DNA of 64,000 nt from Chthonobacter albigriseus (lineage in GTDB: Bacteria; Pseudomonadota; Alphaproteobacteria; Rhizobiales; Pleomorphomonadaceae): assembly GCF_013839445.1 (NCBI RefSeq), contig NZ_JACDIT010000008.1:62001-126000 (forward strand). Direction: 5' to 3'. Made by a program: the position numbers and the translations under genes. Under the pieces are notes generated by a model. The model did no database searches. It was not told the origin of the DNA and worked only from the letters and a program-made list of their open reading frames with translations. Shown here piece by piece: positions 23,629 to 37,492 of this stretch. Every line of letters begins with the position of its first letter. Positions within the stretch are counted from its first letter, which is position 1.

Positions 23629-26256
23629 ATGACGACCCATTTCAAGACACATGGCTACCAGCCCGCGGGCAATAGTCCCGATAGTGGCCTCCATCGTCTC
23701 CTTCCGGCGAACGCGATCGTCTATGCCGTCGGCGACGTGCACGGATGCCTGCGCGAGCTGATCGAACTGGAGCGCCGGATTGTTGCCGATGCGGCGAGCC
23801 ATGCCGGTCCCCGCTATATCGTTATGCTGGGCGACTACGTGGATCACGGCCCGGATTCGGCCGGCGTGATCGACCATCTGCTGACCGAGCCCCCGGCCGG
23901 TTTCAAGCGCATCTGCCTGAAGGGCAACCACGAGGCCTTCTTCGAGAACTACCTGCAGTCGCCGTCCAGCAACGCGTCGTGGCTGCAGATCGGCGGGCTG
24001 GAGACCCTCGCATCCTACGGTGTCGAACAGCTCGGCAAGCCAGGCCGTTCCGACCGCAAGCGGATCGCAGACGATGCGCGCCATGCCGTGCCGCGGGAGC
24101 ACCGCGAGTTCCTGGCCGGCCTGCCGCTGACGGCACGCATCGGATCCGTGTTGTTCGTGCACGCGGGCCTCAAGCCCGGCGTGCCGCTGGAGCGCCAGTC
24201 GCCCACCGACCTCCTGCTGATCCGCCATGAGTTCCTGGAGAGCGACCACGACTTCGGTATGCTCGTGGTGCACGGCCACACGGCGCGCCTCAGCCCGGAG
24301 GTGCGCCGGCATCGGATCGGCATCGACACCGGCGCCCACCGCACCGGCTGCCTCACCGCCTTGAAGGTGCACCCGGGCGGCCTGCACATCCTCTCCACCG
24401 TGGATGCGCGGCCCGTGTCCATTCCGCGTGAAGCGGTCCAGCGCGGTCCCGGTTCGATGAGCGCGCTGCCGGAGTGGGTGGAGCTCGCGCTTCCCGCCTC
24501 CGGACACAAGCACATCACCCCCGGCGCCGTCACGGCGGCGCGACGCATCCTGCCGCGCGCCATGGCCTCGGCCGTCGCGGCCGTGTCGCTCGCCGCCATT
24601 GCGCTCGGTGCCGAGCCGCTGATCCGCTCCAGCTGGTCCAGCTGGTTCCCGGACGCCACGACGCCGCCGGTGCAGACCGCCAGTGCCGATCCGCAGGATG
24701 TGACCGGCGCGCTGCCGCCGTCCGCGGAGCCGCGAACCACCGTCACGGCGCTTGGTTCCGAAAAGCCGGCGCTTCCGCCGCGCGCCGACGACGTGGCCGA
24801 AGCGGATATCGTCGACGTCGCCGCGCCGATCGAAGACCCGGTCGACCGCCGGCCGATCCTTGCGGCGGACGAGGCGATCCTGCCGGAGGAACCGGTCACC
24901 CCGGCGCCGCGTCCGGAGGAGATCCGGACCGCCGCTGCGCCGACCGAGATCCTCGAACCCGTTCCCGTTGGGCCGACGGCGGCCGTGGCTGTGGAGACGC
25001 CGCCACCTGCAGAGGTCGCCGCTCCGGCGATCGTTCCGCGCGCTCCGTCTCAGGCCGCCAAACCGGCCGAGCCGATCGTCACCGCGGCGATCGAACCGGA
25101 GACCACTACACCTGCGAAGATCGCGAGCCCGTCGACGGCGCCGCTGTCTGTGCGCTCGGTCACCGTTCCCGGCGCCGGCGCGACCCAGACGTCGGCGAGC
25201 AACCGTCCCGCCAGCGTGCCGATGAAGGCGCCGACGCCCGATGCCGCCACCGCGCTTGCGCCGACGGCCATCGTCATGCCCGAGCCGACACGGACGACGA
25301 CGCCGGACGCCGCGCCCGCGCGGCCGGTCGAGGTCGCGGCGATCGATCCGGACATCGCCAGCGATGCCACCGCCCCCCTTGTGGGCGAGTCGGAAGCCGC
25401 GCCGAGCTTCACGACGCTGACGCCGCCGCTGCCGACGCCGCGTCCGCGCATCGCAACGCTGCCGACGGTGACGACGCCCGAGGCGACCACACCGCGCAAG
25501 CCCGCCAAGCCTGCCCAGCAGACCACCCGCAAGCCAGCGACCACCGAGACGGCCGCTCGCAAGCCCGCAACCCAGCCGCAGGCCCGGGTCGCGGCGGTGG
25601 AACCTGCTCCGCAAGCCCAGGCGCCGGCCGTGCGTCGCCAGCAGAAGGCGGCGCCGGTGCTGATGAAGGTTTGCGAGAAGAAGCTCTTCTGGGAGAGCTG
25701 CGAGTACATGATGGTCGAGGCCGACCAGCTGCAGCCGATTGAGCGGCCCCGGGTGGCCCGGTCCGAGAACCGCAGGGACAACAGCGATCGCGGATCGTCG
25801 GACACGGACAACCGGAACTCCTCGGTCGACAACAGCACGACGGGTGGAAACACAGGTAACACCCCCGGCGGCTCGGATGGTACGGGCGGGACCGGCGGCT
25901 CAGGTGGGACCGATGGAACCGGTGGCACGGGCGGGACTGGTGGCACGGGCGGAACCGGTGGCACGGGTGGAACCGGTGGCACGGGCGGAACCGGTGGCAC
26001 GGGTGGAACCGGTGGCACGGGCGGAACCGGTGGCACAGGCGGAACCGGCGGCACGGGTGGGACCGACGGCGGTGCCGGGTCCGGCTCGGGCGGCTCCGGT
26101 TCCGGTGGGTCCAGCAGCGGCGGGTCCAGTTCCGGTGGGTCCAGCAGCGGCGGGTCCAGTTCTGGCGGGTCTGACTCCGGCGGCGGGTCTGACTCCGGCG
26201 GCGGCGGCGGTTCCGGCGGCGGCGGCGGTTCAGACGGCGGCGGCGGGGAAACCTGA
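23629..26256 (+). CDS. Membrane-anchored PPP-type phosphatase with Pro/Ala/Thr stalk and Gly-repeat tail
   Basis: An 875-residue protein of unusual architecture. Residues 28-260 are a serine/threonine-type metallophosphatase with all metal motifs: GDVHG (35-39), GDYVDHG (68-74), GNHE (99-102), FVHAG (176-180) and HGHT (215-218). A basic stretch and one hydrophobic segment (about 308-330, AMASAVAAVSLAAIALGA) follow, then about 350 residues rich in Pro, Ala and Thr. A short two-Cys patch (KVCEKKLFWESCEYM, near 680-695) precedes a tail of about 130 residues of Gly/Thr, Gly/Ser and Gly/Asp repeats. The simplest topology is cytoplasmic phosphatase, one membrane pass and an exported stalk. The function of the exported part is unknown. 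The convergent aminotransferase gene ends 18 bases downstream. Confidence 0.85.
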   Translation: MTTHFKTHGYQPAGNSPDSGLHRLLPANAIVYAVGDVHGCLRELIELERRIVADAASHAGPRYIVMLGDYVDHGPDSAGVIDHLLTEPPAGFKRICLKGNHEAFFENYLQSPSSNASWLQIGGLETLASYGVEQLGKPGRSDRKRIADDARHAVPREHREFLAGLPLTARIGSVLFVHAGLKPGVPLERQSPTDLLLIRHEFLESDHDFGMLVVHGHTARLSPEVRRHRIGIDTGAHRTGCLTALKVHPGGLHILSTVDARPVSIPREAVQRGPGSMSALPEWVELALPASGHKHITPGAVTAARRILPRAMASAVAAVSLAAIALGAEPLIRSSWSSWFPDATTPPVQTASADPQDVTGALPPSAEPRTTVTALGSEKPALPPRADDVAEADIVDVAAPIEDPVDRRPILAADEAILPEEPVTPAPRPEEIRTAAAPTEILEPVPVGPTAAVAVETPPPAEVAAPAIVPRAPSQAAKPAEPIVTAAIEPETTTPAKIASPSTAPLSVRSVTVPGAGATQTSASNRPASVPMKAPTPDAATALAPTAIVMPEPTRTTTPDAAPARPVEVAAIDPDIASDATAPLVGESEAAPSFTTLTPPLPTPRPRIATLPTVTTPEATTPRKPAKPAQQTTRKPATTETAARKPATQPQARVAAVEPAPQAQAPAVRRQQKAAPVLMKVCEKKLFWESCEYMMVEADQLQPIERPRVARSENRRDNSDRGSSDTDNRNSSVDNSTTGGNTGNTPGGSDGTGGTGGSGGTDGTGGTGGTGGTGGTGGTGGTGGTGGTGGTGGTGGTGGTGGTGGTGGTGGTDGGAGSGSGGSGSGGSSSGGSSSGGSSSGGSSSGGSDSGGGSDSGGGGGSGGGGGSDGGGGET
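25921..26064 (+). repeat. 18-bp tandem repeat coding for (Gly-Gly-Thr)n
   Basis: Eight contiguous copies of GGTGGCACGGGYGGAACC. The fourth position of the second half alternates C and T in neighbouring copies, giving a partial 36-bp higher-order period. The first and last copies are degenerate. It encodes a Gly-Gly-Thr tract in the phosphatase tail. In-frame unit length means copy-number changes by slippage would alter protein length without a frameshift. Confidence 0.95.
26101..26160 (+). repeat. Exact 30-bp direct duplication coding for Gly/Ser repeats
   Basis: 26101-26130 and 26131-26160 are identical. The unit encodes Gly/Ser-rich sequence (SGGSSSGGSS). It is followed by degenerate GGSDSGG and GGGG tracts to the stop. 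Confidence 0.93.
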
Positions 26257-27419: not shown

Positions 27420-27461
27420 GGTTCGGAAAACCCGAACCTCGGCTCTTGAAACAAATATTTT
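27420..27461 (+). promoter_or_regulatory. LysR-type box and promoter element upstream of the monooxygenase operon
   Basis: GGTTCGGAAAACCCGAACC (27420-27438) is an inverted repeat with 7-bp arms and fits the T-N11-A LysR box. It is followed by N7, TTGAAA (27446-27451), N4 and TATTTT (27456-27461), then CC. The string CCGAACC-N7-TTGAAA-N4-TATTTT recurs with identical spacing at 37463-37492 before the ABC transporter operon, whose adjacent LysR gene is the likely binder. Confidence 0.72.
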
Positions 27462-27541
27462 CCTGAAGGGGCCTGCGGCGCTTTCATCAGGCGGATACCG
27501 CAGCAGCGGTCCCCCACGCTCCTCTTCCGGGACCTCAATCC

Positions 27542-29062
27542 ATGATCCGCACAGGCGCCGAATACAAGGACAGCATCCGCGACGGCCGGGAGGTCCACGT
27601 CGGCGGCGAGCGGGTGAAGGACGTCACGGCCCACCCGATGTTCAAGCCGCTGGTCGACATCCGGGCGCGGATCTACGACATGCAGCACGAAGCGGCGACG
27701 CGGCATATCCTGGCCTTCGAACAGGACGGCGAGACCCACGCGGTCGCCAACAAGCTGCCGATCACCCAACAGGACTGGTGGGACAAGCGGCGGGCGACCG
27801 ACACCGTGCTGGAGACGATCGGCGGCGTGGTCACCCGCGTCGGCGACGAGACCGTGGGCGAGATGTGGTCGCTGTTCGACGGGCAGGACGTGCTCAACGA
27901 GGTGGACCCGCAGTTCTCGGCGAACATTCGCACCCATATCGACAAGGTGCTGCACACCGACCCCTTCCACGTCTCGGCCAACACCGATCCCAAGGGCGAT
28001 CGCTCCAAGCCGCCGCAGGACCAGGACCCGGACATGCTGCTGCATGTGGTGCGGGAGACTGATGCCGGCATCGTCGTGCGCGGCGCCAAGTACGAAACGG
28101 CGGCCGCCTACGCCAACCAGGCCTTCACCAAGCCGACGATCGCCAACTGGGGCAACTCGGCGCTGTCCGACTATGCGGTCGGCTTCATCTGCGACCTCGG
28201 CTCGGCGGGCCTGAAGTTCATCTGCCGCACGGGTTTTGCGGGCCGCGCGCCGGCGGAGGACTACCCGCTCTCCAACCGGTTCGACGAGGTCGACACGCTG
28301 GTGATCTTCGACGACGTGCTGATCCCGTGGGAGAACGTGCTGTTCTACCGCCACACCAAGGCGGCGATGTTCATCCGGGCGACGCTGCACCGCTATTCGG
28401 CCTATGCCTTCGTCCAGCGCAACCTGAAGCTCGCCGACATGCTGATCGGCGCTGCCCTCTTCAACGCGCGCCAGACCGGGCTGGACAAGCAGCAGGCCGT
28501 TCAAGAGAAGCTCGCGCAGCTCGCCGTCTATCGGGAGGGCATCAACGCTCACCTGACCGCCGCGATCGCGCTTGCCGAGCGCTCGCCGGGCGGCCTCCTG
28601 ATGCCCAACCAGTCGCTGCTCTATGCCGGGCGCGTGCTCGCCTGCTCGCAGCTGCACGAGATGATGCACATCGCCCGCGAGCTCTGCGGCGGGCAGATCT
28701 GCGTGACGCCGGACAAGGCTGCGTTCGACGCGCCGGAGACCAAGCCCTGGCTCGACAAGTACTACACCGTCAACGAGGACTGGGTGGCAGACGACCGGCG
28801 CAAGCTGCTCGCCTTTGCGCGCGACATGCTGAACTCCGACTACGCCGGGCACCGGCTCACCTTCCAGCTGTTCGCCCAGTCGCCGCCCTATGCGCATCTG
28901 GCCGCGGTCTACCGGAACTTCGACTGGGACGGGCCGCTGGAGTTCGTGCAGAAGGCGGCCGGCCTCTCCGACAGGGTGCTCGGCGCCACGACGCGCACGC
29001 CCGGCGACAGCGCGGTCAGCCGCTGGTTCAACGCCGGGATCACCCGCACCGCGGCGGAATGA
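27542..29062 (+). CDS. 4-hydroxyphenylacetate 3-hydroxylase (HpaB/PvcC)-family flavin monooxygenase
   Basis: A 506-residue large component of a two-component reduced-flavin monooxygenase, with the acyl-CoA-dehydrogenase-like fold. Typical family features are the N-terminal RTGAEYKDSIRDGREVHVGGERV, HPMFKPLVDIRARIYDM, and the central segment with IPWENVLFYRH. Length matches HpaB-type enzymes. It needs FADH2 or FMNH2, which the next-but-36-base gene (flavin reductase) would supply. The aromatic substrate of classic HpaB is not implied: this branch also hydroxylates or cleaves other rings. Its control element is shared with the NitT/TauT transporter operon, so its substrate is probably what that importer brings in. 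Confidence 0.9.
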   Translation: MIRTGAEYKDSIRDGREVHVGGERVKDVTAHPMFKPLVDIRARIYDMQHEAATRHILAFEQDGETHAVANKLPITQQDWWDKRRATDTVLETIGGVVTRVGDETVGEMWSLFDGQDVLNEVDPQFSANIRTHIDKVLHTDPFHVSANTDPKGDRSKPPQDQDPDMLLHVVRETDAGIVVRGAKYETAAAYANQAFTKPTIANWGNSALSDYAVGFICDLGSAGLKFICRTGFAGRAPAEDYPLSNRFDEVDTLVIFDDVLIPWENVLFYRHTKAAMFIRATLHRYSAYAFVQRNLKLADMLIGAALFNARQTGLDKQQAVQEKLAQLAVYREGINAHLTAAIALAERSPGGLLMPNQSLLYAGRVLACSQLHEMMHIARELCGGQICVTPDKAAFDAPETKPWLDKYYTVNEDWVADDRRKLLAFARDMLNSDYAGHRLTFQLFAQSPPYAHLAAVYRNFDWDGPLEFVQKAAGLSDRVLGATTRTPGDSAVSRWFNAGITRTAAE

Positions 29063-29097
29063 CGAGCGGTCGGCCTCGGCCGGGAAAGGGCGGTCCG

Positions 29098-29625
29098 ATG
29101 AACGCGGTCGCAAAGCATGAGGGCGATCCTCTCAAGGCGAAGTTCCTCGGCGGCATGAGCTCGGCCGCCGCCACGGTCAACGTGGTGACCACGGACGGGC
29201 CGGCCGGACGCTTCGGCGTGACCGTTTCGGCGATGTCGTCGGTGTCGGCTGACATGGAGCAGCCGACGCTGCTGGTCTGCGTGCACGAGCGGAGCGCCAC
29301 GGCCGGGGCGATCCTCGCCAACGGCGTATTCTGCGTCAACGTCCTGCGCGACGACCAGGCCGAGGTCGCCGACGTCTTCGCCGGACGACGGCCCGCAGAG
29401 GCCGGCGACAAGTTCTCCGGCATCGGCTGGACGCCCGGGACGACCGGCGCCCCTGCCCTCGCGGGCGCGCTCGTGGTGTTCCACTGCCGCCTCCTCAGCC
29501 ACCAGCAGGTCGGCACCCACCATGTGCTGATCGGCGCGGTGGAGGACGTGACCCGGGGGCACGCCGGCCTGCCGCTGATCTATCAGGATCGGTCCTACGG
29601 CCGGCCGGCGCGCCTCTCCCCCTGA
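29098..29625 (+). CDS. Flavin reductase (HpaC/RutF-like) domain protein
   Basis: A 175-residue NAD(P)H:flavin reductase that feeds reduced flavin to the monooxygenase. The family split-barrel is recognisable from FLGGMSSAAATVNVVTT, GVTVSAMSSVSADMEQPTLLVCV and the conserved GVFCVNVL strand (about residues 77-84), with the C-terminal HHVLIGAVEDV. The start was set at ATG 29098 with AAAGGG 7 bases upstream; a much longer frame upstream only shadows the monooxygenase. It is followed 29 bases later by the RidA gene. Confidence 0.9.
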   Translation: MNAVAKHEGDPLKAKFLGGMSSAAATVNVVTTDGPAGRFGVTVSAMSSVSADMEQPTLLVCVHERSATAGAILANGVFCVNVLRDDQAEVADVFAGRRPAEAGDKFSGIGWTPGTTGAPALAGALVVFHCRLLSHQQVGTHHVLIGAVEDVTRGHAGLPLIYQDRSYGRPARLSP

Positions 29626-29654
29626 TCCCCAGCCCCCTTCCCCAAGGATCGACG

Positions 29655-30071
29655 ATGGCCGTCCACAAGCGCATCCGCCCGTTCAACACCGGCGCGACCT
29701 ATCCGGAGCAGAAGCTCGACAACGATCTCTGCCAGGTGGTGGTGGCCAAGGGCACCTTCGTTTTCTGCCGGGGACAGATCGGGCAGAACCTCGACACCAG
29801 CGAAAGCGTCGGCATCGGCGATGCGGCCGCCCAGACCGAGCAGGCGATGGCCAACATCAAGATGCTGCTGGAGGAGGCGGGGTCCGACCTCTCGCACATC
29901 TGCAAGATCACCATCTACATCGTCGATCCGCGCTACCGGGAACCGGTGTACCGGGTGGTCGGCAAGTGGCTGAAGGGCGTGTTCCCGGTCTCCACCGGCA
30001 TCGTGGTGTCCGGCCTCGCCCGTCCGGAATGGCTGGTGGAAGTGGACGCCACCGCCGTGATCCCGGAGTGA
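29655..30071 (+). CDS. RidA-family (YjgF/YER057c/UK114) enamine/imine deaminase
   Basis: A 138-residue RidA-fold protein. Members hydrolyse reactive enamines and imines, or act as aminoacrylate deaminase like RutC. Arg123 in SGLARPEW and Glu129 in VEVDATAV correspond by eye to the catalytic Arg and the conserved Glu. It is longer at the N-terminus than the classic 128-residue form. ATG 29655 has AAGGA 6 bases upstream. Next to a flavin monooxygenase/reductase pair it may clear an aminoacrylate-like product of ring cleavage. Confidence 0.92.
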   Translation: MAVHKRIRPFNTGATYPEQKLDNDLCQVVVAKGTFVFCRGQIGQNLDTSESVGIGDAAAQTEQAMANIKMLLEEAGSDLSHICKITIYIVDPRYREPVYRVVGKWLKGVFPVSTGIVVSGLARPEWLVEVDATAVIPE

Positions 30072-30075
30072 GTCG

Positions 30076-30750
30076 ATGACCTTTTCGATCTCCGCCCGCT
30101 GCCCGCGCACCGGCGCCTTCGGCATCGCCATCTCGTCTTCCTCGCCGGCGGTGGCGGCGCGCTGCTCGCACGCGCGGGCCGGCGTCGGGGTGGCGGCGAG
30201 CCAGAACATCACCGATCCGCGGCTGGGGCAGCGGGCGCTGGAGCTGATGGCGGAGGGCCTTTCCGCGGATGCGGCGCTCACCGCTCTTCTGGATGGTTAT
30301 CCGCACGGCGCGTACCGCCAGCTGGCGCTGGTCGACGCCGACGGCGGTGTCGCCTTCCATTCCGGAGAGAAGGCGCTCGGCACGGTCGGCGCGGCGATCG
30401 GCTCCGGTGTGATCGCGATCGGCAACCTGCTCGCCCACGCAGGCGTTCCGCAGGCGATGGTGGAGGCCTATGAAGCGGCACGCGGGCCGTTTCCGTCGCG
30501 GCTGCTGGCGGGGCTGGAAGGCGGACTGGCGGCGGGCGGCGAGGCGGGCCCGGTTCATTCGGCCGGGCTTCTGGTGGTGCGCGACGTTCCCTGGCCGATC
30601 GCCGACCTCCGGGTCGACTGGGCCGACGACGACCCGATCGGCGCGCTGCGGCGGCTCTGGGACATCTACGCGCCGCAGCTCGAGGCCTACGTCACGCGCG
30701 GACTGGACCCGACTGAGGCGCCGAGCTTCGGCGTGCCGGGCGACCCCTGA
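30076..30750 (+). CDS. DUF1028 family protein (putative Ntn-hydrolase-fold amidase)
   Basis: A 224-residue DUF1028 protein. The start TFSISARCPRTGAFGIAISSSSPAVAARC is characteristic, as is the later ASQNITDPRLGQRALELM. The family is thought to adopt an Ntn-hydrolase-like fold; no reaction is firmly established. It starts 4 bases after the RidA stop, with GGAG upstream, so the two are co-translated. RidA and DUF1028 neighbours are a recurrent pairing in catabolic operons. Its last 64 bases overlap the 3' end of the convergent glycosyltransferase gene. Confidence 0.9.
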   Translation: MTFSISARCPRTGAFGIAISSSSPAVAARCSHARAGVGVAASQNITDPRLGQRALELMAEGLSADAALTALLDGYPHGAYRQLALVDADGGVAFHSGEKALGTVGAAIGSGVIAIGNLLAHAGVPQAMVEAYEAARGPFPSRLLAGLEGGLAAGGEAGPVHSAGLLVVRDVPWPIADLRVDWADDDPIGALRRLWDIYAPQLEAYVTRGLDPTEAPSFGVPGDP

Positions 30751-31874
30751 GCCGGCGCCATGTCTGCAACATCAGGCAGGGCCCGCGAAAGTCCGGATTC
30801 ATCGACTTCACAGAGCCGCTGGAAGCGCGCGGTCTGGAAGCGGCCGATCGGGCCGCGCGAGGCAAACTCCAGCGGGTCGGCTTCCAGGTAGGGTATCCTC
30901 GGCTCCGGCTCCCGATTGCGCAGCAGCCTGATCGGGTTCAACGAGCCGATGAGGTTCATGACGAAGTGCTTGCCCATCCGAAGAAGCACCGGCGGGTCCA
31001 GGCGCGCCAGTTCCCAGGTGGACGCGAAGAAGCGGTCGAAACGGCGCGCCCTCAAGAAGTTGACGCGGGCATAGTGGAGCGCCCCCGCCATGATCCAGCG
31101 CCTGGTCTCCTCGGACAGCTGGGGATTGGCCTCCAGATGGTTGCGGGTGGTGGCGATCATGCCCTCGGCCATTCGCGCCCGGTTGCTGGACATGCTGCCT
31201 TCATAGACGCGGTAGCCAACCAGGAACTCGGGCACGAAGGCCACCTTGTAGCGGGCGACGATCTTCATCTCGAAGTCGAAATCCTCGCAGCCGCCGATCC
31301 CCGCGGCGCGGTAGGAGCTGTCGTAGCCGCCGACCGCCAGCGCAGCGTCTCGGCGCACCAGAAGGGCGCTGCCGTTGCCGACGCTCTTGAAATAAAAATG
31401 CCGGGCAAGGATATCGCCGCTGTAGATCACGGTGGCGCCCTGGCTGATGACGTCGTCGAACTCGTCAATCCGGCGGTGGAGCGTGAACACAGCGCCCCAT
31501 TCCGGGCCGTTGCAGCTTCGCAGAGCATCCACCTGCCGACGGATCTTCTCGGGATGCCAGAGATCGTCGGCGTCGAGGAAGGCGACGAGTTCTCCGGCGG
31601 CGGCGGCAAGACCGGCGTTGCGGGCGGCGGCCACACCGCCGTTCGGCGTGTTCAGGATCCGGATGCGCGGATCCGACGCCGCAAACTCCTGAGCGATACT
31701 CAGAGTCGAATCCGTCGACCCGTCGTTGACGATCAGGATCTCGACGGTGCGGTAGCTTTGATGAACTGCCGTGCGGAGCGTTCTCGCCAGATAGGTTTCA
31801 GCGTTGTACGCCGGTATGATTATGCTCACCAACGGATCTTGGCGATCTCCAGCGATCTCTTCACTTCCATGCAT
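30687..31874 (-). CDS. Family 2 glycosyltransferase
   Basis: A 395-residue GT-A enzyme transferring a sugar from a nucleotide donor in glycan assembly. VSIIIPAYNAETYLART opens the fold, VNDGSTDST (50-57) is the nucleotide-binding strand and DADD (101-104) the metal-binding DXD motif; GGCEDFDFEMK around residue 205 carries the ED catalytic base region. The C-terminal 60 residues are unlike the family and lie partly over the 3' end of the convergent DUF1028 gene. AAGG precedes ATG 31874. It is divergent from the UDP-xylose synthase-like gene, together forming part of a glycan cassette. Confidence 0.9.
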   Translation of the reverse strand: MHGSEEIAGDRQDPLVSIIIPAYNAETYLARTLRTAVHQSYRTVEILIVNDGSTDSTLSIAQEFAASDPRIRILNTPNGGVAAARNAGLAAAAGELVAFLDADDLWHPEKIRRQVDALRSCNGPEWGAVFTLHRRIDEFDDVISQGATVIYSGDILARHFYFKSVGNGSALLVRRDAALAVGGYDSSYRAAGIGGCEDFDFEMKIVARYKVAFVPEFLVGYRVYEGSMSSNRARMAEGMIATTRNHLEANPQLSEETRRWIMAGALHYARVNFLRARRFDRFFASTWELARLDPPVLLRMGKHFVMNLIGSLNPIRLLRNREPEPRIPYLEADPLEFASRGPIGRFQTARFQRLCEVDESGLSRALPDVADMAPAQGSPGTPKLGASVGSSPRVT

Positions 31875-32057
31875 CGCGACGACCTTTTGTCAGCCTTTGC
31901 GACACATGCTAACAGGCAAATGTTTTTCTTCCGCAGCCAGACACGATAAAAATGCGATTAAACATATCGATGTATATTCACAATATGTGATGTTTCCACT
32001 TTTTCCCGACAATCGGGATGTTATGGTGAAGACCTATTGCCGATAGGGGTCTTTGCC
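31875..32057. promoter_or_regulatory. AT-rich divergent promoter region with a 13-bp palindrome
   Basis: This 183-base divergent gap is much more AT-rich than its flanks. TCACAATATGTGA (31978-31990) is a perfect inverted repeat (TCACA-N3-TGTGA), a plausible binding site for a dimeric regulator, though the factor cannot be named. No unambiguous -35/-10 pair was fixed for either gene. Confidence 0.45.
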
Positions 32058-33035
32058 GTGAAGAACATACTAGTTGCCGGGGGATGCGGTTTCATTGGCT
32101 CCCACCTCTGCGATCACCTTCTTCAACGTAGCGACGTAGGGTTGTGCGTCGTTGTCGATAATCTCTGGACCGGCCGCAAGGAGAACCTCGCCCACGTCCA
32201 GGATCCACGTCTCAAGATCGTGGTCACTGACGTCGAGGCCTTCCAGAGCGACGTTCTCTTCGACGAAGTCTACCACCTCGCCTCGCCGGCTTCGCCGCCG
32301 TGGTACATGACCGAGCCGAAGCGGACGATCTCCGCCAACCTCCTCGGCGCCATGCGGCTGCTGCACCTGCTGAAGCCCGGCGGCCAGTTTGCCTTCACCT
32401 CCACGTCGGAGGTCTACGGAGACCCCCTCGTTTCGCCGCAGCCGGAAAGCTACCGGGGTTCGGTGGATTGCACCGGCCCGCGCTCGTCCTACGACGAGAG
32501 CAAGCGGTGCACGGAGTCGCTGCTGTTCGAGATGCGCCGCACCGAGAAGCTTAACGTTCGCGTGGTGCGCCTCTTCAACGTCTACGGGCCGCGGACGCGC
32601 CCGGACGATGGGCGCGCGGTGTCGAACTTCATCACGCAGGCTCTGGCCGGCAAGCCGATCACGATCTACGGCGACGGCATGCAGTCCCGCAGCTGGGGCT
32701 ACGTGGACGACATCGTGGAAGGCCTCGCCCGCTTCTTCTGGCGGGACCAGCACGGCTACGACGGCCCGCTGAACGTGGGCAACGAGCGCGAGATCCCGGT
32801 GATCGAGGTGGCGCGCCACATCGCCCAGCTGGTGCCCGGCACCACCCTGGTCCACCGCGATCCGGTGCCGCAGGATCCCACCAACCGTCGTCCCGACCTC
32901 ACCATCGCCAGAAAGGTGTTGCCTGGCTGGGAGTGCCGGATACCCTACGAACTCGGCGTCCAGCTGAACCTGGAGTGGTTCAAGGACCACCTCAAGGCCG
33001 GCGGCCCGGACCAGCAAGACGTCCGCGTGGCCTGA
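32058..33035 (+). CDS. NAD-dependent epimerase/dehydratase, UDP-glucuronate decarboxylase (UDP-xylose synthase)-like
   Basis: A 325-residue extended SDR. It has GGCGFIGSH (residues 8-16), YHLASPASPPWY (72-83), TSTSEVYG (114-121), Tyr145/Lys149 in SYDESK, and VRLFNVYGPR. The ASPASPPWY motif and the YDESKR catalytic block resemble UDP-xylose synthases, which decarboxylate UDP-glucuronate. A related dehydratase/epimerase is possible. The start was set at GTG 32058 with AGGGG 8 bases upstream; a TTG seven codons earlier has no site. It would supply the nucleotide sugar for the neighbouring glycosyltransferase. Confidence 0.88.
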   Translation: MKNILVAGGCGFIGSHLCDHLLQRSDVGLCVVVDNLWTGRKENLAHVQDPRLKIVVTDVEAFQSDVLFDEVYHLASPASPPWYMTEPKRTISANLLGAMRLLHLLKPGGQFAFTSTSEVYGDPLVSPQPESYRGSVDCTGPRSSYDESKRCTESLLFEMRRTEKLNVRVVRLFNVYGPRTRPDDGRAVSNFITQALAGKPITIYGDGMQSRSWGYVDDIVEGLARFFWRDQHGYDGPLNVGNEREIPVIEVARHIAQLVPGTTLVHRDPVPQDPTNRRPDLTIARKVLPGWECRIPYELGVQLNLEWFKDHLKAGGPDQQDVRVA

Positions 33036-33054
33036 CGCCAAGAACGGATGACCC

Positions 33055-34845
33055 GTGGTCCGCCTGCCTGACTTCAGCTACGAGCGTTCGATCGTCTCCC
33101 TGCTCCTGAGGATGCTCGGCGGGAAACGGTTGACGCTCGTGCTCGTCGTTGTTCTCGGGCTGCTGGCGTCGGCCTTCGAAGGCGTCGGCCTCTACCTTTT
33201 CCTGCCGCTGCTCGACGCCCTGGACGGTCCGGTCGACCTTTCCCAGCTGCCGGGCTGGCTGCGCGCCGCGGTGCAGGCCATCCCGGAGGGTTGGCTGGTG
33301 CCGGCGCTCGTCGGCCTGGTGCTTCTCAGCGTGATCGCCAAGAATGCGATCGGCTATCTCAACGCGGCGGTGTTCACCTCGCTCGATACGGCCGCCGCGC
33401 ATACGATGCGCCGCGAGTTCTACAGGAGCGTCCTCCGGGCGAGCTTCGGCTTCCTCAATGGCGAGCCCTCGGGGCGGATCGCCAACGCTCTCTTCTCGGA
33501 GACCTGGCGCGCGGCGAGTGCGCTCGGCGTGGTCTATGCGCTGATCACGGACGCCACCGCGGCCGTCATCCTGATCGCCGTGCTGGCCTACATCTCGTGG
33601 TCGACCACGCTTCTGGTCATCCCCTTCGTCGGGTTGATCCTCGTCGTGCTGCAGCTGCTCACCCGGCAGGCCAAGGACCTCGGCCGCAGCGCCACCGAGG
33701 CCAACGCGGCGCTCACCAAACGCGGCTGGGAGGGCCTGGCGGGCCTGAAGACCATCCGGCTGTTCGGACGGGAGTCCTACGAGCTTGACCGCTTCGCCGC
33801 CGCCTCCGACACGGTGCGTAGGTGCTTCCGCCGGATGAACCTGATCTCGCTGACGATCCAGCCCGCCTTCGAGGTGCTGATCGCCTTCGCAGTCTGCACC
33901 TGGATCATCGTGCTGCACCAGACGGGAACCGGCCTTTCGACGCTGGCCGTGTTCCTGCTGGTGCTCTACCGGCTGCAGCCGAAGGTGCGCGGGATCATGT
34001 CGGCCCGCATCGCACTGCTGGAACATGGCAGCGCGGTGCTGGAGATCGATCGCCTGCAGCGGGCGTCGGCGGTGTCGCACATCGCTTCCGGAACGACCCC
34101 GATCCCCCGGTTCCGCCGCGAGATCCGCTTCGACAAGGTCGGCTACAGCTACCCGGGCAGCGACACGGCCAGCCTGCACGAGGTGGACCTGACGATCCGG
34201 CACAACGCCACCACCGCGGTGGTCGGCCGGTCGGGCGCGGGCAAGTCCACGCTCCTCAGCCTGGTCTGCCGGCACATGGATCCGACCTCGGGGTCGATCA
34301 CCGTGGACGGCATTCCGCTCGACGAGCTTCGGCTGGACGACTGGTACGAGCGGATCGCGGTGGTGACGCAGGAGGTCCACCTGTTCGCCGCCACCGTTCG
34401 CGACAACATCGCCTACGGCCTCGTCGGCGCCACCGATGCAGACGTCGTGGAGGCGGCGCGGCTGGCCAATGCCGACGAGTTCATCCGCGCCCTGCCCCGC
34501 GGCTACGACACCGAAGTGGGCGACCGGGGGATCCTGCTGTCCGGCGGTCAGCGGCAGCGGCTGGCGTTCGCGCGGGCGATCATCCGCAAGCCGGACCTGC
34601 TGATCCTCGACGAGGCGACCAACGCCCTCGACAGCTATGCGGAATCGCTGATCCAGGACGCGCTGCGGACGATCGGCAGCAAGGCGACCATCCTGATCGT
34701 CGCGCACCGGCTCTCCACCGTCCGCGACGCCGACGAGATCGTGGTGCTGGATGCGGGGCGGGTGGTCGAGCGCGGACCCTACGACCAGCTGATCCGGCGG
34801 CGGGGCGCTTTCGCCGAGATGATGGCGCTGCAGACCAAGGGCTGA
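33055..34845 (+). CDS. ABC-type exporter, fused permease-ATPase (MsbA/lipid-flippase type)
   Basis: A 596-residue half-transporter. Its N-terminal membrane domain has about six helices (starting LTLVLVVVLGLLASAFEGVGLYLFL), followed by an ATPase domain with Walker A GRSGAGKST (about residue 392), Q-loop VTQEVHLF, signature LSGGQRQR and Walker B LLILDEAT, plus the H-loop AHRLST. Family members flip lipid-linked glycans or export lipids and peptides. It lies 19 bases after the UDP-xylose synthase-like gene, so a role in moving a lipid-linked glycan is the best reading. The start codon is GTG. Confidence 0.9.
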   Translation: MVRLPDFSYERSIVSLLLRMLGGKRLTLVLVVVLGLLASAFEGVGLYLFLPLLDALDGPVDLSQLPGWLRAAVQAIPEGWLVPALVGLVLLSVIAKNAIGYLNAAVFTSLDTAAAHTMRREFYRSVLRASFGFLNGEPSGRIANALFSETWRAASALGVVYALITDATAAVILIAVLAYISWSTTLLVIPFVGLILVVLQLLTRQAKDLGRSATEANAALTKRGWEGLAGLKTIRLFGRESYELDRFAAASDTVRRCFRRMNLISLTIQPAFEVLIAFAVCTWIIVLHQTGTGLSTLAVFLLVLYRLQPKVRGIMSARIALLEHGSAVLEIDRLQRASAVSHIASGTTPIPRFRREIRFDKVGYSYPGSDTASLHEVDLTIRHNATTAVVGRSGAGKSTLLSLVCRHMDPTSGSITVDGIPLDELRLDDWYERIAVVTQEVHLFAATVRDNIAYGLVGATDADVVEAARLANADEFIRALPRGYDTEVGDRGILLSGGQRQRLAFARAIIRKPDLLILDEATNALDSYAESLIQDALRTIGSKATILIVAHRLSTVRDADEIVVLDAGRVVERGPYDQLIRRRGAFAEMMALQTKG

Positions 34846-34867
34846 TCCGGCGGAGGTCCGCCCGACC

Positions 34868-36346
34868 TCACGGCCGTCCCGATGCGCTGCCGTAGGGGTC
34901 GGCGGAGGAATAGCGGTTCAGCCCGTAGCGGGCAGCGTCGTTCGGCGGGCGGGCCGGCCGCTGCCTCAGCGTCTCCCAGAGCTTCATGGAAAGCGACTGG
35001 TCCTCCAGGCCGGCGGCCGGGAGGGTATTGGCGGGGATCTCGATCCGGATCTCCCCGGTTTCCTGGCTGCCCGATACCACCCAGCCGAGCTTGGGCAGGT
35101 CCAGGCGGAAGTCGGCGCGCTCGACGGGCAGCGGCACGGCCGGGGCGGTCCAGAACGGATCGACGGGCGGCTGCATGATGGCCAGCGTCAGCGACCGCAG
35201 ACCCCAATGGCAGCTGCCGGGGCCGGTGTAGCGGTCGACGAGGCGCAGATCGGTTTCCAGGTAGCCCATGGTGAGCGAGCCGTCGCGCAGGACGTCGCGT
35301 TCCACGAAGTAGGTCCAGGTGGCGTCCAGCGCGCGGCGGGCGAGGCCGGGCGGTATGGCGGCGGGATCGAGCATGGAGGCGGCGAGCACGGGGCTCGGAA
35401 CCGCGGTGCGGTAGCAGGCGCTGCGACCGAGGATCGGGATGCCCCGCGGTGAGACGAGATGGGCGGTGAGGCGGCCGCTTTCGACCAGCGCAGGGACCAG
35501 GAACGCCGGGTCGAAGTCCGGCTTCATCTGGTGAATCCAGAACAGGTCGTAGCTGATGCCCCAGGCGTTGTAGAAGTCCACCTCGCCGGTCGGCCCGTCG
35601 GTGAACCAGCCGCTTTCGCGCAGGTTGGCGATGAAGGTGCGGTATCCGTTGCGCTCGACCTGTGGAATCCGGCCGACGGTGTCCAGGAAGGTCGCCACCA
35701 CGACCTGGAACAGGTCCCAGTTGTTGCGGAAGGTGATCTCGGCGCGAACCGCCTGGAGGAGCCAGGCCGCGACCTGCGCCTGCTCGGCCTCGCCGAGCCG
35801 GTCCCAAAGCACCGGCCGGGTGAGCCAGAGGAGGCGCGCGATGTCGGCGCTTTCCACGATCCGCTGGTCGTCGCCGCGCACATCGCCCCAATAGGACGGG
35901 CCGTCGGGATCGGTTCCGGCCAGGATGCCCTGGCGCAGGACCGCGACGAGGTCCACCGGCTCGCCGCTCGCCGGGTCGGGGATCACCGCTGGCCGTCCGC
36001 TGTGGATCCAGGCGCCGAGGAGCGGCGCGGTGCGGGCGAAGCCCTCCAGGCCGCTCACCCGGAATCCGCGGTCGGACGGCAGGCCGGTGTAGTCGACGCG
36101 GGCGAAATCGGCCGAGGCGTTGGCGACGAAGCCGGCCAGGAAGTAGCCGAACAGCGCCTCGAAGCGGGCGGCGGGCGCGGCGCGGCCGTCGAGGAAGGCG
36201 GCGGCAGCGGCGCGATCGGCGGCAGTCGGCCGCTCGCTCATGGCGCGGTAGCTGGACCAACCGTCCACCGCGTCCCGACGGACGATCGCGGCGGAGAGCA
36301 CGCCGGCCAGCACCAGCACCGACAAGGCCGCGATCCACCGCCGCAT
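34868..36346 (-). CDS. DUF2264 domain protein with N-terminal membrane anchor or signal
   Basis: A 492-residue protein. MRRWIAALSVLVLAGVLSAAIV is a single N-terminal hydrophobic segment (anchor or uncleaved signal), so the bulk is periplasmic. The body matches DUF2264, notably FRNNWDLFQVV (central) and GPGSCHWGLRSLTLA followed by DPFW and PLPVE, a family usually linked to carbohydrate-active alpha-helical toroids. No verified enzyme activity is known. The start was set at ATG 36346 with GGAGG 10 bases upstream; the frame is open further but the extension lies over the LysR start region. It is convergent with the ABC exporter and belongs to the glycan cassette by position. Confidence 0.85.
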   Translation of the reverse strand: MRRWIAALSVLVLAGVLSAAIVRRDAVDGWSSYRAMSERPTAADRAAAAAFLDGRAAPAARFEALFGYFLAGFVANASADFARVDYTGLPSDRGFRVSGLEGFARTAPLLGAWIHSGRPAVIPDPASGEPVDLVAVLRQGILAGTDPDGPSYWGDVRGDDQRIVESADIARLLWLTRPVLWDRLGEAEQAQVAAWLLQAVRAEITFRNNWDLFQVVVATFLDTVGRIPQVERNGYRTFIANLRESGWFTDGPTGEVDFYNAWGISYDLFWIHQMKPDFDPAFLVPALVESGRLTAHLVSPRGIPILGRSACYRTAVPSPVLAASMLDPAAIPPGLARRALDATWTYFVERDVLRDGSLTMGYLETDLRLVDRYTGPGSCHWGLRSLTLAIMQPPVDPFWTAPAVPLPVERADFRLDLPKLGWVVSGSQETGEIRIEIPANTLPAAGLEDQSLSMKLWETLRQRPARPPNDAARYGLNRYSSADPYGSASGRP

Positions 36347-36481
36347 CGTCCAGGCGCCTCCGTTCACGTTGTTGCTGTGCAAGGTACAGCATCGCTTGCG
36401 GCCGTCCCACCCGCGTTCGCGGCCCCGTGTCGGATTGCCATCGCAGGCGCGCTCGGGCAAGGTTCCCCAGGCGGGGGCGGC

Positions 36482-37480
36482 ATGCGTTTCACCTTCAGGC
36501 AGCTGGAGTATTTCATCGCGGCGGGGGAGACCGGCTCGATCACGCTCGCCTCCGAGCGGATCAACATTTCCCAGCCTTCGATCTCCACCGCGATCTCCCA
36601 GCTGGAGCAGGAACTCGGCGTCCAGCTCTTCATCCGCCATCACGCGCAAGGGCTATCGCTGACGCCGGCAGGCCGGGTGCTGCTGGGCGACGCCAAGCGG
36701 TTGATCGAGCAGGCGGAGGGTCTCTACACATCCGCCTCGGAGGTGACCGACCAGATCCGGGGGCGGCTTTCCGTCGGCTGCCTGGTGACGCTGGCGCCGA
36801 TGGTGCTGCCGGAGCTCAGCTACTCGTTCACCGCCGCCTTTCCGGCGACCACCGTCCGGCATCACGAGAACCACCAGGAATGGCTGCTGGAGGGGCTCAG
36901 GCGGTCGGAGATCGACGTGGCGATCACCTACGACCTGCAGATCCCGGAGGGCATAGCGTTCACCCCGCTCGTCCAGTTGCCGGCGCACGTGGTGGTGAGC
37001 GAGTCGCACCCGTTCGCGCGGCTCTCGGCGGTGACGCTGCAGGAACTGGCCGGCGAGCCGCTGATCCTCCTCGACCTGCCGATGAGCAGGGAGTATTTCC
37101 TCGCCCTCTTCATGGCGGTCGGGATCCAGCCGACGGTGCATTCGCGTTCCAGCCACCAGGACGTGGTGCGCACGATGGTCGCCAACGGCTACGGCTACAC
37201 GCTCGCCAACGTGCGGCCCCGGTCGGACTTCGCGCTCGACGGGCGGAAGGTTGTGCGGGTGCGGCTGGCGGGCGACCACCGGCCGATGACGATGGGGCTG
37301 GTGACGCTCGCGCGGCTTAAGAAATCGCGGCTGCTGGAGGCGTTCGAGCGGCACTGCCAGTCGTTCATCTCGGACGCCTACATCCCCGGCATGGTGGCAC
37401 CGGCACTGGAGCGGCGCTCGCTCCGCGCGAAATCGGCCGGCGACGGGGTTGGTTTTAAAAAACCGAACCAGGAAAATTGA
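36482..37480 (+). CDS. LysR-family transcriptional regulator of the amine/monooxygenase pathway
   Basis: A 332-residue LTTR. The winged helix-turn-helix is RQLEYFIAAGETGSITLASERINISQPSISTAISQLE (residues 6-42), followed by the linker and a two-lobed effector domain (GRLSVGCLVTLAPMVLP onward). ATG 36482 follows a GGGGGCGGC site. It is upstream of, and in the same direction as, the NitT/TauT-type transporter operon. Its last codons and stop (37463-37480) lie within the promoter element that also occurs at 27420-27461 before the monooxygenase operon. It therefore probably regulates both; the inducer is unknown. Confidence 0.92.
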   Translation: MRFTFRQLEYFIAAGETGSITLASERINISQPSISTAISQLEQELGVQLFIRHHAQGLSLTPAGRVLLGDAKRLIEQAEGLYTSASEVTDQIRGRLSVGCLVTLAPMVLPELSYSFTAAFPATTVRHHENHQEWLLEGLRRSEIDVAITYDLQIPEGIAFTPLVQLPAHVVVSESHPFARLSAVTLQELAGEPLILLDLPMSREYFLALFMAVGIQPTVHSRSSHQDVVRTMVANGYGYTLANVRPRSDFALDGRKVVRVRLAGDHRPMTMGLVTLARLKKSRLLEAFERHCQSFISDAYIPGMVAPALERRSLRAKSAGDGVGFKKPNQEN

Positions 37481-37492
37481 AAAGACTATTTT
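37447..37492 (+). promoter_or_regulatory. LysR-type box and promoter element upstream of the NitT/TauT-type transporter operon
   Basis: GGTT (37447-37450), GGTTTTAAAAAACC (inverted repeat, 37451-37464), CCGAACC (37463-37469), N7, TTGAAA (37477-37482), N4, TATTTT (37487-37492), TTCC. From CCGAACC through TATTTT, the order and spacing are identical to 27432-27461. The element overlaps the last codons of the LysR gene. Confidence 0.72.

Follow-up and report, generated by a model that had tools for sequence, protein, structure and literature searches.

The HpaB-like monooxygenase operon and the NitT/TauT-type transporter operon of the window (the whole 64-kb stretch of DNA analysed, with a GC content of 67%) are very probably controlled by one LysR-type regulator, judging from an element that recurs before the same genes in many relatives. 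In the window, this 42-bp element occurs in two copies, and the two gene groups that bear it sit about 7 kb from each other (Table 1). The first operon comprises, in order, the HpaB-like monooxygenase, a flavin reductase, a RidA-type protein, and a DUF1028 protein; the second comprises a NitT/TauT-type binding protein, a permease, an ATPase, and two large flavoproteins.

Table 1. Predicted operators, genes of the two operons, and the intervening cassette (window positions).
Feature	Position	Strand	Remarks
Operator 1 (predicted)	27420..27461	+	dyad GGTTCGG-N5-CCGAACC + TTGAAA-N4-TATTTT; 31.9 bits, held out
Operator 1, parts	dyad 27420-27438; T-N11-A 27423/27435; downstream half 27446-27461		
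HpaB-like two-component flavin monooxygenase, oxygenase, 506 aa	27542..29062	+	Pfam HpaB_N + HpaB
Flavin reductase, 175 aa	29098..29625	+	Pfam Flavin_Reduct
RidA/Rid-type protein, 138 aa	29655..30071	+	Pfam Ribonuc_L-PSP
DUF1028 protein, 224 aa	30076..30750	+	Pfam DUF1028
Glycan cassette: glycosyltransferase (-), epimerase (+), ABC exporter (+), protein without Pfam match (-)	30687..36346		between DUF1028 and lysR
LysR-type regulator, 332 aa, proposed regulator of both operators	36482..37480	+	Pfam HTH_1 + LysR_substrate; orthologues
Operator 2 (predicted)	37451..37492	+	dyad GGTTTTA-N5-CCGAACC + TTGAAA-N4-TATTTT; 27.9 bits, held out
Operator 2, parts	dyad 37451-37469; T-N11-A 37454/37466; downstream half 37477-37492		
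NitT/TauT-type substrate-binding protein, 328 aa	37690..38676	+	Pfam NMT1
ABC permease, 262 aa	38742..39530	+	Pfam BPD_transp_1
ABC ATPase, 279 aa	39518..40357	+	Pfam ABC_tran
Histamine/trimethylamine-dehydrogenase-like flavoprotein 1, 701 aa	40457..42562	+	909.9 bits to 6de6 histamine dehydrogenase
Histamine/trimethylamine-dehydrogenase-like flavoprotein 2, 697 aa	42559..44652	+	898.6 bits to 6de6

Compared base by base, the two copies are identical at 29 of 42 positions and share the layout GGTT-N3-AAAA-N-CCGAACC-N7-TTGAAA-N4-TATTTT. The initial annotation had reported the motif CCGAACC-N7-TTGAAA-N4-TATTTT with identical spacing at 27432-27461 and 37463-37492, and both copies were recovered with 0 mismatches, although the three named blocks contain 19 matched positions (7+6+6) and not the seventeen that it had counted. 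This motif is the right-hand two thirds of a bipartite operator whose first 12 bases had been missed: the likeness of the copies begins 12 bases 5' of the motif and stops where the motif stops. The anatomy is that of a LysR operator, with a 19-bp dyad, GnTTCGG-N5-CCGAAnC, enclosing T-N11-A and followed at nearly fixed spacing by GAAA-N4-TAnTTT. Both window copies have T-N11-A, formed by the T of position 4 together with the A of position 16. The inverted repeat starting with GGTT that had been placed in front of the motif is part of the element itself. At operator 1 its 7-bp arms pair perfectly, and at operator 2 the left arm GGTTTTA lies in the same register with the outer 4 bases alone pairing. 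Operator 1 ends 81 bp 5' of the HpaB-like gene. Operator 2 overlaps the 3' end of lysR, whose stop codon (37478-37480) falls within it, as had been noted; this overlap is special to the present genome, since the sites of the 15 loci with a binding-protein site begin 15 to 110 bp 3' of the lysR stop.

Near-identical cores that occur twice in one genome might have arisen by recent copying of a single promoter or be the ends of a mobile repeat. This origin is extremely improbable, as the flanks of the two copies are unrelated (three adjoining 100-bp blocks match at 32, 31, and 24 of 100 positions, which is background) and the sites precede the same two genes in relatives. Both copies are also AT-rich in a GC-rich window, so that chance or generic AT-rich promoter sequence had to be weighed as the source of the likeness. 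In 100 dinucleotide-preserving shuffles of the window, no match to the motif was found at up to 3 mismatches. At the same tolerance, the whole genome (4,644,500 bases, 20 contigs) contained the two window sites and no others, inside or outside promoters, and a reversed control pattern had no match in the same 4.64 Mb. Across 80 genomes, a fixed consensus was unspecific at 3 mismatches (11 matches in 7 genomes versus 15 for the reversed control), and its 0-mismatch matches were operator 1 and the HpaB site of genome G002 only.

A relaxed form of the window pattern matches sites 5' of the HpaB, binding-protein, and dehydrogenase genes in relatives. We used 18 such sites to seed an operator matrix, which was trained on 74 loci alone with the window held out. 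The loci came from a scan of genome contigs with the window LysR (63 loci) and from further related genomes (13 regions); L094 and L095, with 23% and 28% identity, were judged unrelated and removed before every count. Near-duplicate loci (e.g., L033/L034, L046/L047, and L070/L071) were counted separately, and L049 and L091 have identical sites. With a threshold of 15 bits, the matrix found 156 sites, compared to a mean of 0.9 and a maximum of 3 for 15 composition-matched, column-permuted matrices, and no position of the window reached 8 bits besides the two held-out operators. Its consensus is GcTTcGG-N5-CCgAAgCa, then GAAA-N4-TAnTTT. The dyad correlation is 0.95, and T-N11-A is strongly represented (T 0.91 at position 4 and A 0.89 at position 16). 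In a set of 109 dyads with no more than one mismatch, the downstream half followed at a gap of 9 in 29 cases and of 10 in 14 cases, and each remaining gap between 0 and 24 occurred once or never. This is a second half at constrained spacing as in LysR-type operators, with gaps of 9 and 10 as two classes within the 74 loci. The downstream-half centre, which is weakly defined, lies about 26 bp 3' of the dyad centre. At 14 bits, 133 of 162 sites had the start of a gene on the same strand no more than 300 bp away, on rough gene calls, versus 29.1 for random placement (maximum, 47).

Because the training seeds had been picked by their likeness to the window, which makes the procedure partly circular, we also ran a matrix built solely from operators 1 and 2. 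With this matrix, the region 5' of HpaB was within the top five scores of its locus in 19 of 22 cases and first in 12 (0.08 expected). The binding-protein 5' region was in the top five in 9 of 15 and first in 1 (0.11 expected). The window-only matrix did poorly for the two dehydrogenase genes and RidA (first in 1/8, 0/11, and 2/55, respectively). Unseeded Gibbs sampling returned tCCGAAAcaAATATTTTCC from 22 sequences 5' of HpaB and AAAAGAtTATTTTTCCgAa from 14 sequences 5' of the binding protein, each corresponding to the downstream half. A first matrix, built by EM, had drifted to AT-rich noise (556 matches at 14 bits versus a control mean of 329) and was replaced; this drift speaks for generic AT-rich sequence. 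The empty shuffles, the two genomic matches, the permuted-matrix controls, the window-only matrix, and the Gibbs results contradict chance, which we regard as having next to no probability. The initial judgement that the match is hard to explain by chance stands.

Operator placement was then counted for sites at 14 bits within 500 bp 5' of a gene. A site was present 5' of HpaB in 19 of 23 loci; for the gene of the NitT/TauT binding protein, the count was 15 out of 16. The proportions were lower for the two dehydrogenases (5/8 and 5/12), the flavin reductase (4/10), and RidA (14/57). In front of lysR itself a site was found in only 2 of 74 loci, so self-regulation of lysR via the element was not seen. 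Where a locus contained both HpaB and the binding protein, both sites were present (10 of 10 loci, two near-duplicate pairs among them). The HpaB loci without a site were L101 and L104, with a site before the upstream flavin reductase, L090, which starts inside HpaB, and L107, whose LysR has only 37% identity. Two loci are marginal (L100 at 14 bits and L097 at 18). The single miss among the binding-protein loci is L051, with only 26% identity. The distance from site to HpaB was 85 to 98 bp in 12 of the 19 loci and 55 to 69 bp in the other 7.

Some operators occur as pairs on opposite strands about 80 to 125 bp apart (L035, 3882/3962; L044, 2432/2522; and L046, 7032/7156), which look like one region serving divergent operons. 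An operator is also found 5' of a gene for an MSMEG_0569-family flavoprotein in L044 (7531-8811), L042 (462-1745), and L070 (8674-9906). RidA, DUF1028, and lysR come after this MSMEG_0569-type gene in L044. The L042 cluster includes genes for an aldehyde dehydrogenase and for a choline-dehydrogenase-like protein.

The two operons had been described as separated. They are apart in the window, where DUF1028 and lysR are 5.7 kb from each other with the glycan cassette filling the interval, but in many relatives they form one cluster and directly flank lysR on either side. Several relatives, such as L040 and L096, have the contiguous order HpaB, flavin reductase, RidA, DUF1028, lysR, binding protein, permease, ATPase, and dehydrogenase. 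In 31 of 74 loci, a same-strand cluster gene ends no more than 300 bp 5' of lysR, and 40 loci qualify if the distance is extended to 2.5 kb. The glycan cassette is absent between the same genes in relatives, and it probably entered a previously intact cluster; the alternative is that one half of the cluster moved. The glycosyltransferase frame, which ends at 30687, extends into the antisense of the last DUF1028 codons (DUF1028 stop, 30750), and this overlap at 30687-30750 suggests a rearrangement junction just 3' of DUF1028. For the cassette exporter, the best match by E value among those listed from 19 other genomes has 37% identity. The 492-amino-acid cassette protein at 34868-36346 on the minus strand has no Pfam match at 1e-5.

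The cluster is patchy, since the one other same-genus genome searched (G001) had no HpaB and no LysR above 31% identity. HpaB and LysR tend to be found in the same genomes. HpaB of at least 72% identity was found in 11 of 80 genomes. Ten of these have a LysR of at least 45% identity, and the eleventh has a LysR of 37% beside HpaB; two genomes in this comparison have a LysR of at least 45% without HpaB. In G042, HpaB and LysR are on separate contigs, a 3-mismatch site lies about 60 bp 5' of HpaB, and a different LysR (28% identical) is encoded near HpaB.

The window regulator belongs to the LysR type, with HTH_1 at 79.1 bits and the substrate-binding domain at 117.3 bits, both above the Pfam gathering scores. 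Among the best 25 of 52 matches, no curated NCBIfam LysR equivalog reached its cut-off. A site at 14 bits was found in 57 of 60 loci whose LysR is at least 60% identical and in 8 of 14 loci below 60%, and divergence of LysR tracks weaker or absent sites (Spearman, 0.51). The HTH region is little changed in the closest orthologues displayed, in an alignment with two rows out of register. At 16 loci with distant LysR paralogues, the best scores ranged from -0.3 to 15.7, with one above 14 (L024, 15.7); this control is weakened because most test loci are about five times as long.

We consider it highly probable that the elements are operators of this LysR and that through them it controls both operons. 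The initial proposal of co-regulation by the window LysR, the predicted binder, is well supported by the conserved sites before both operons in relatives. Another regulator, encoded elsewhere, might bind the site with lysR merely adjacent. The identity of the binder is not readable from the sequence, and sites before lysR itself are rare, both of which would agree with an outside regulator. However, every locus was gathered through lysR, the sites adjoin lysR also at loci that lack HpaB and the transporter, weaker or missing sites go with LysR divergence, and the two most conserved dyad positions are the T-N11-A of the LysR box. An outside regulator is therefore quite improbable.

According to the passages of PMC8407307 drawn on here, the DNA bound by LysR regulators spans 50 to 60 bp and includes both a recognition site, T-N11-A, that is often found near -65 and an activation site located at the -35 and -10 regions. 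The window LysR would anchor on the dyad as its recognition site. With an inducer, probably the pathway substrate or an intermediate, it may then engage the promoter-proximal downstream half and activate both operons. The dyad centres lie at 27429 and 37460, and with the usual -65 placement transcripts would start near 27494 and 37525. Operator 2 would keep the split halves under one control despite the glycan cassette. Alternatively, LysR could bind both sites and serve for the most part to repress, with the inducer lifting this repression. Some LysR regulators do repress (same passages of PMC8407307), and the promoter positions at both operons are predicted ones, but a conserved second half 3' of the recognition dyad suits an activation site, and we hold predominant repression to be unlikely.

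The proposed LysR activator resembles the systems in those parts of PMC8407307 in its HTH_1 and LysR_substrate domains, the T-N11-A dyad, the downstream half, and a site before the controlled operons. In contrast to the arrangement given there, the window lysR lies between its two operons and is not divergent, and no site was seen at its own promoter. The oxygenase resembles 4-hydroxyphenylacetate 3-monooxygenase (HpaB/HpaC) in having both HpaB Pfam domains and a flavin reductase partner. However, it falls far below the NCBIfam HpaB equivalog cut-offs (229.2 bits versus 480.2 for HpaB-1, and 167.8 versus 885.2), as does the reductase for HpaC (112.5 versus 205.95 bits). Both large flavoproteins belong to the histamine/trimethylamine dehydrogenase family (6de6, 3k30, and 1djn), with full-length similarity (910 and 899 bits) and an aligned cysteine cluster; for each, histamine dehydrogenase is the best match. 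The related enzyme Pno acts in nicotine breakdown in Agrobacterium tumefaciens S33, according to the section of PMC5500553 used. Unlike those enzymes or Pno as described in that section, the window flavoproteins are in two tandem copies with a NitT/TauT transporter.

The gene content points to oxidation and deamination of a nitrogen-containing compound, and the regulon probably serves catabolism of an amine or N-heterocycle, this substrate class being favoured because of the two histamine-dehydrogenase-like enzymes. The NitT/TauT-type transporter would take up the substrate, and the dehydrogenases, the monooxygenase, and the RidA-type and DUF1028 proteins may break it down oxidatively. The open-licence literature searched gave no description of the gene set or regulon. 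We therefore judge the particular regulon to be new and apparently uncharacterised, although the type of regulator/operator switch is known. It is reasonably likely, on the comparative evidence, that this LysR regulon is widespread in Alphaproteobacteria, that its rigid two-part operator marks one uncharacterised amine or N-heterocycle pathway, and that an operator for each half permits the split by a foreign cassette without loss of co-regulation.

In the window, a glycan cassette apparently interrupts a catabolic cluster, with both halves retaining the same operator. The operator is a handle on a pathway whose genes include DUF1028, on which the open-licence literature searched gave no paper, and its matrix can be used for finding further pathway genes and for designing inducer screens. 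Elsewhere in the window, the plus strand at 23629-26256 encodes a protein that combines a metallophosphoesterase domain with a long repeat tail rich in Gly and Thr.
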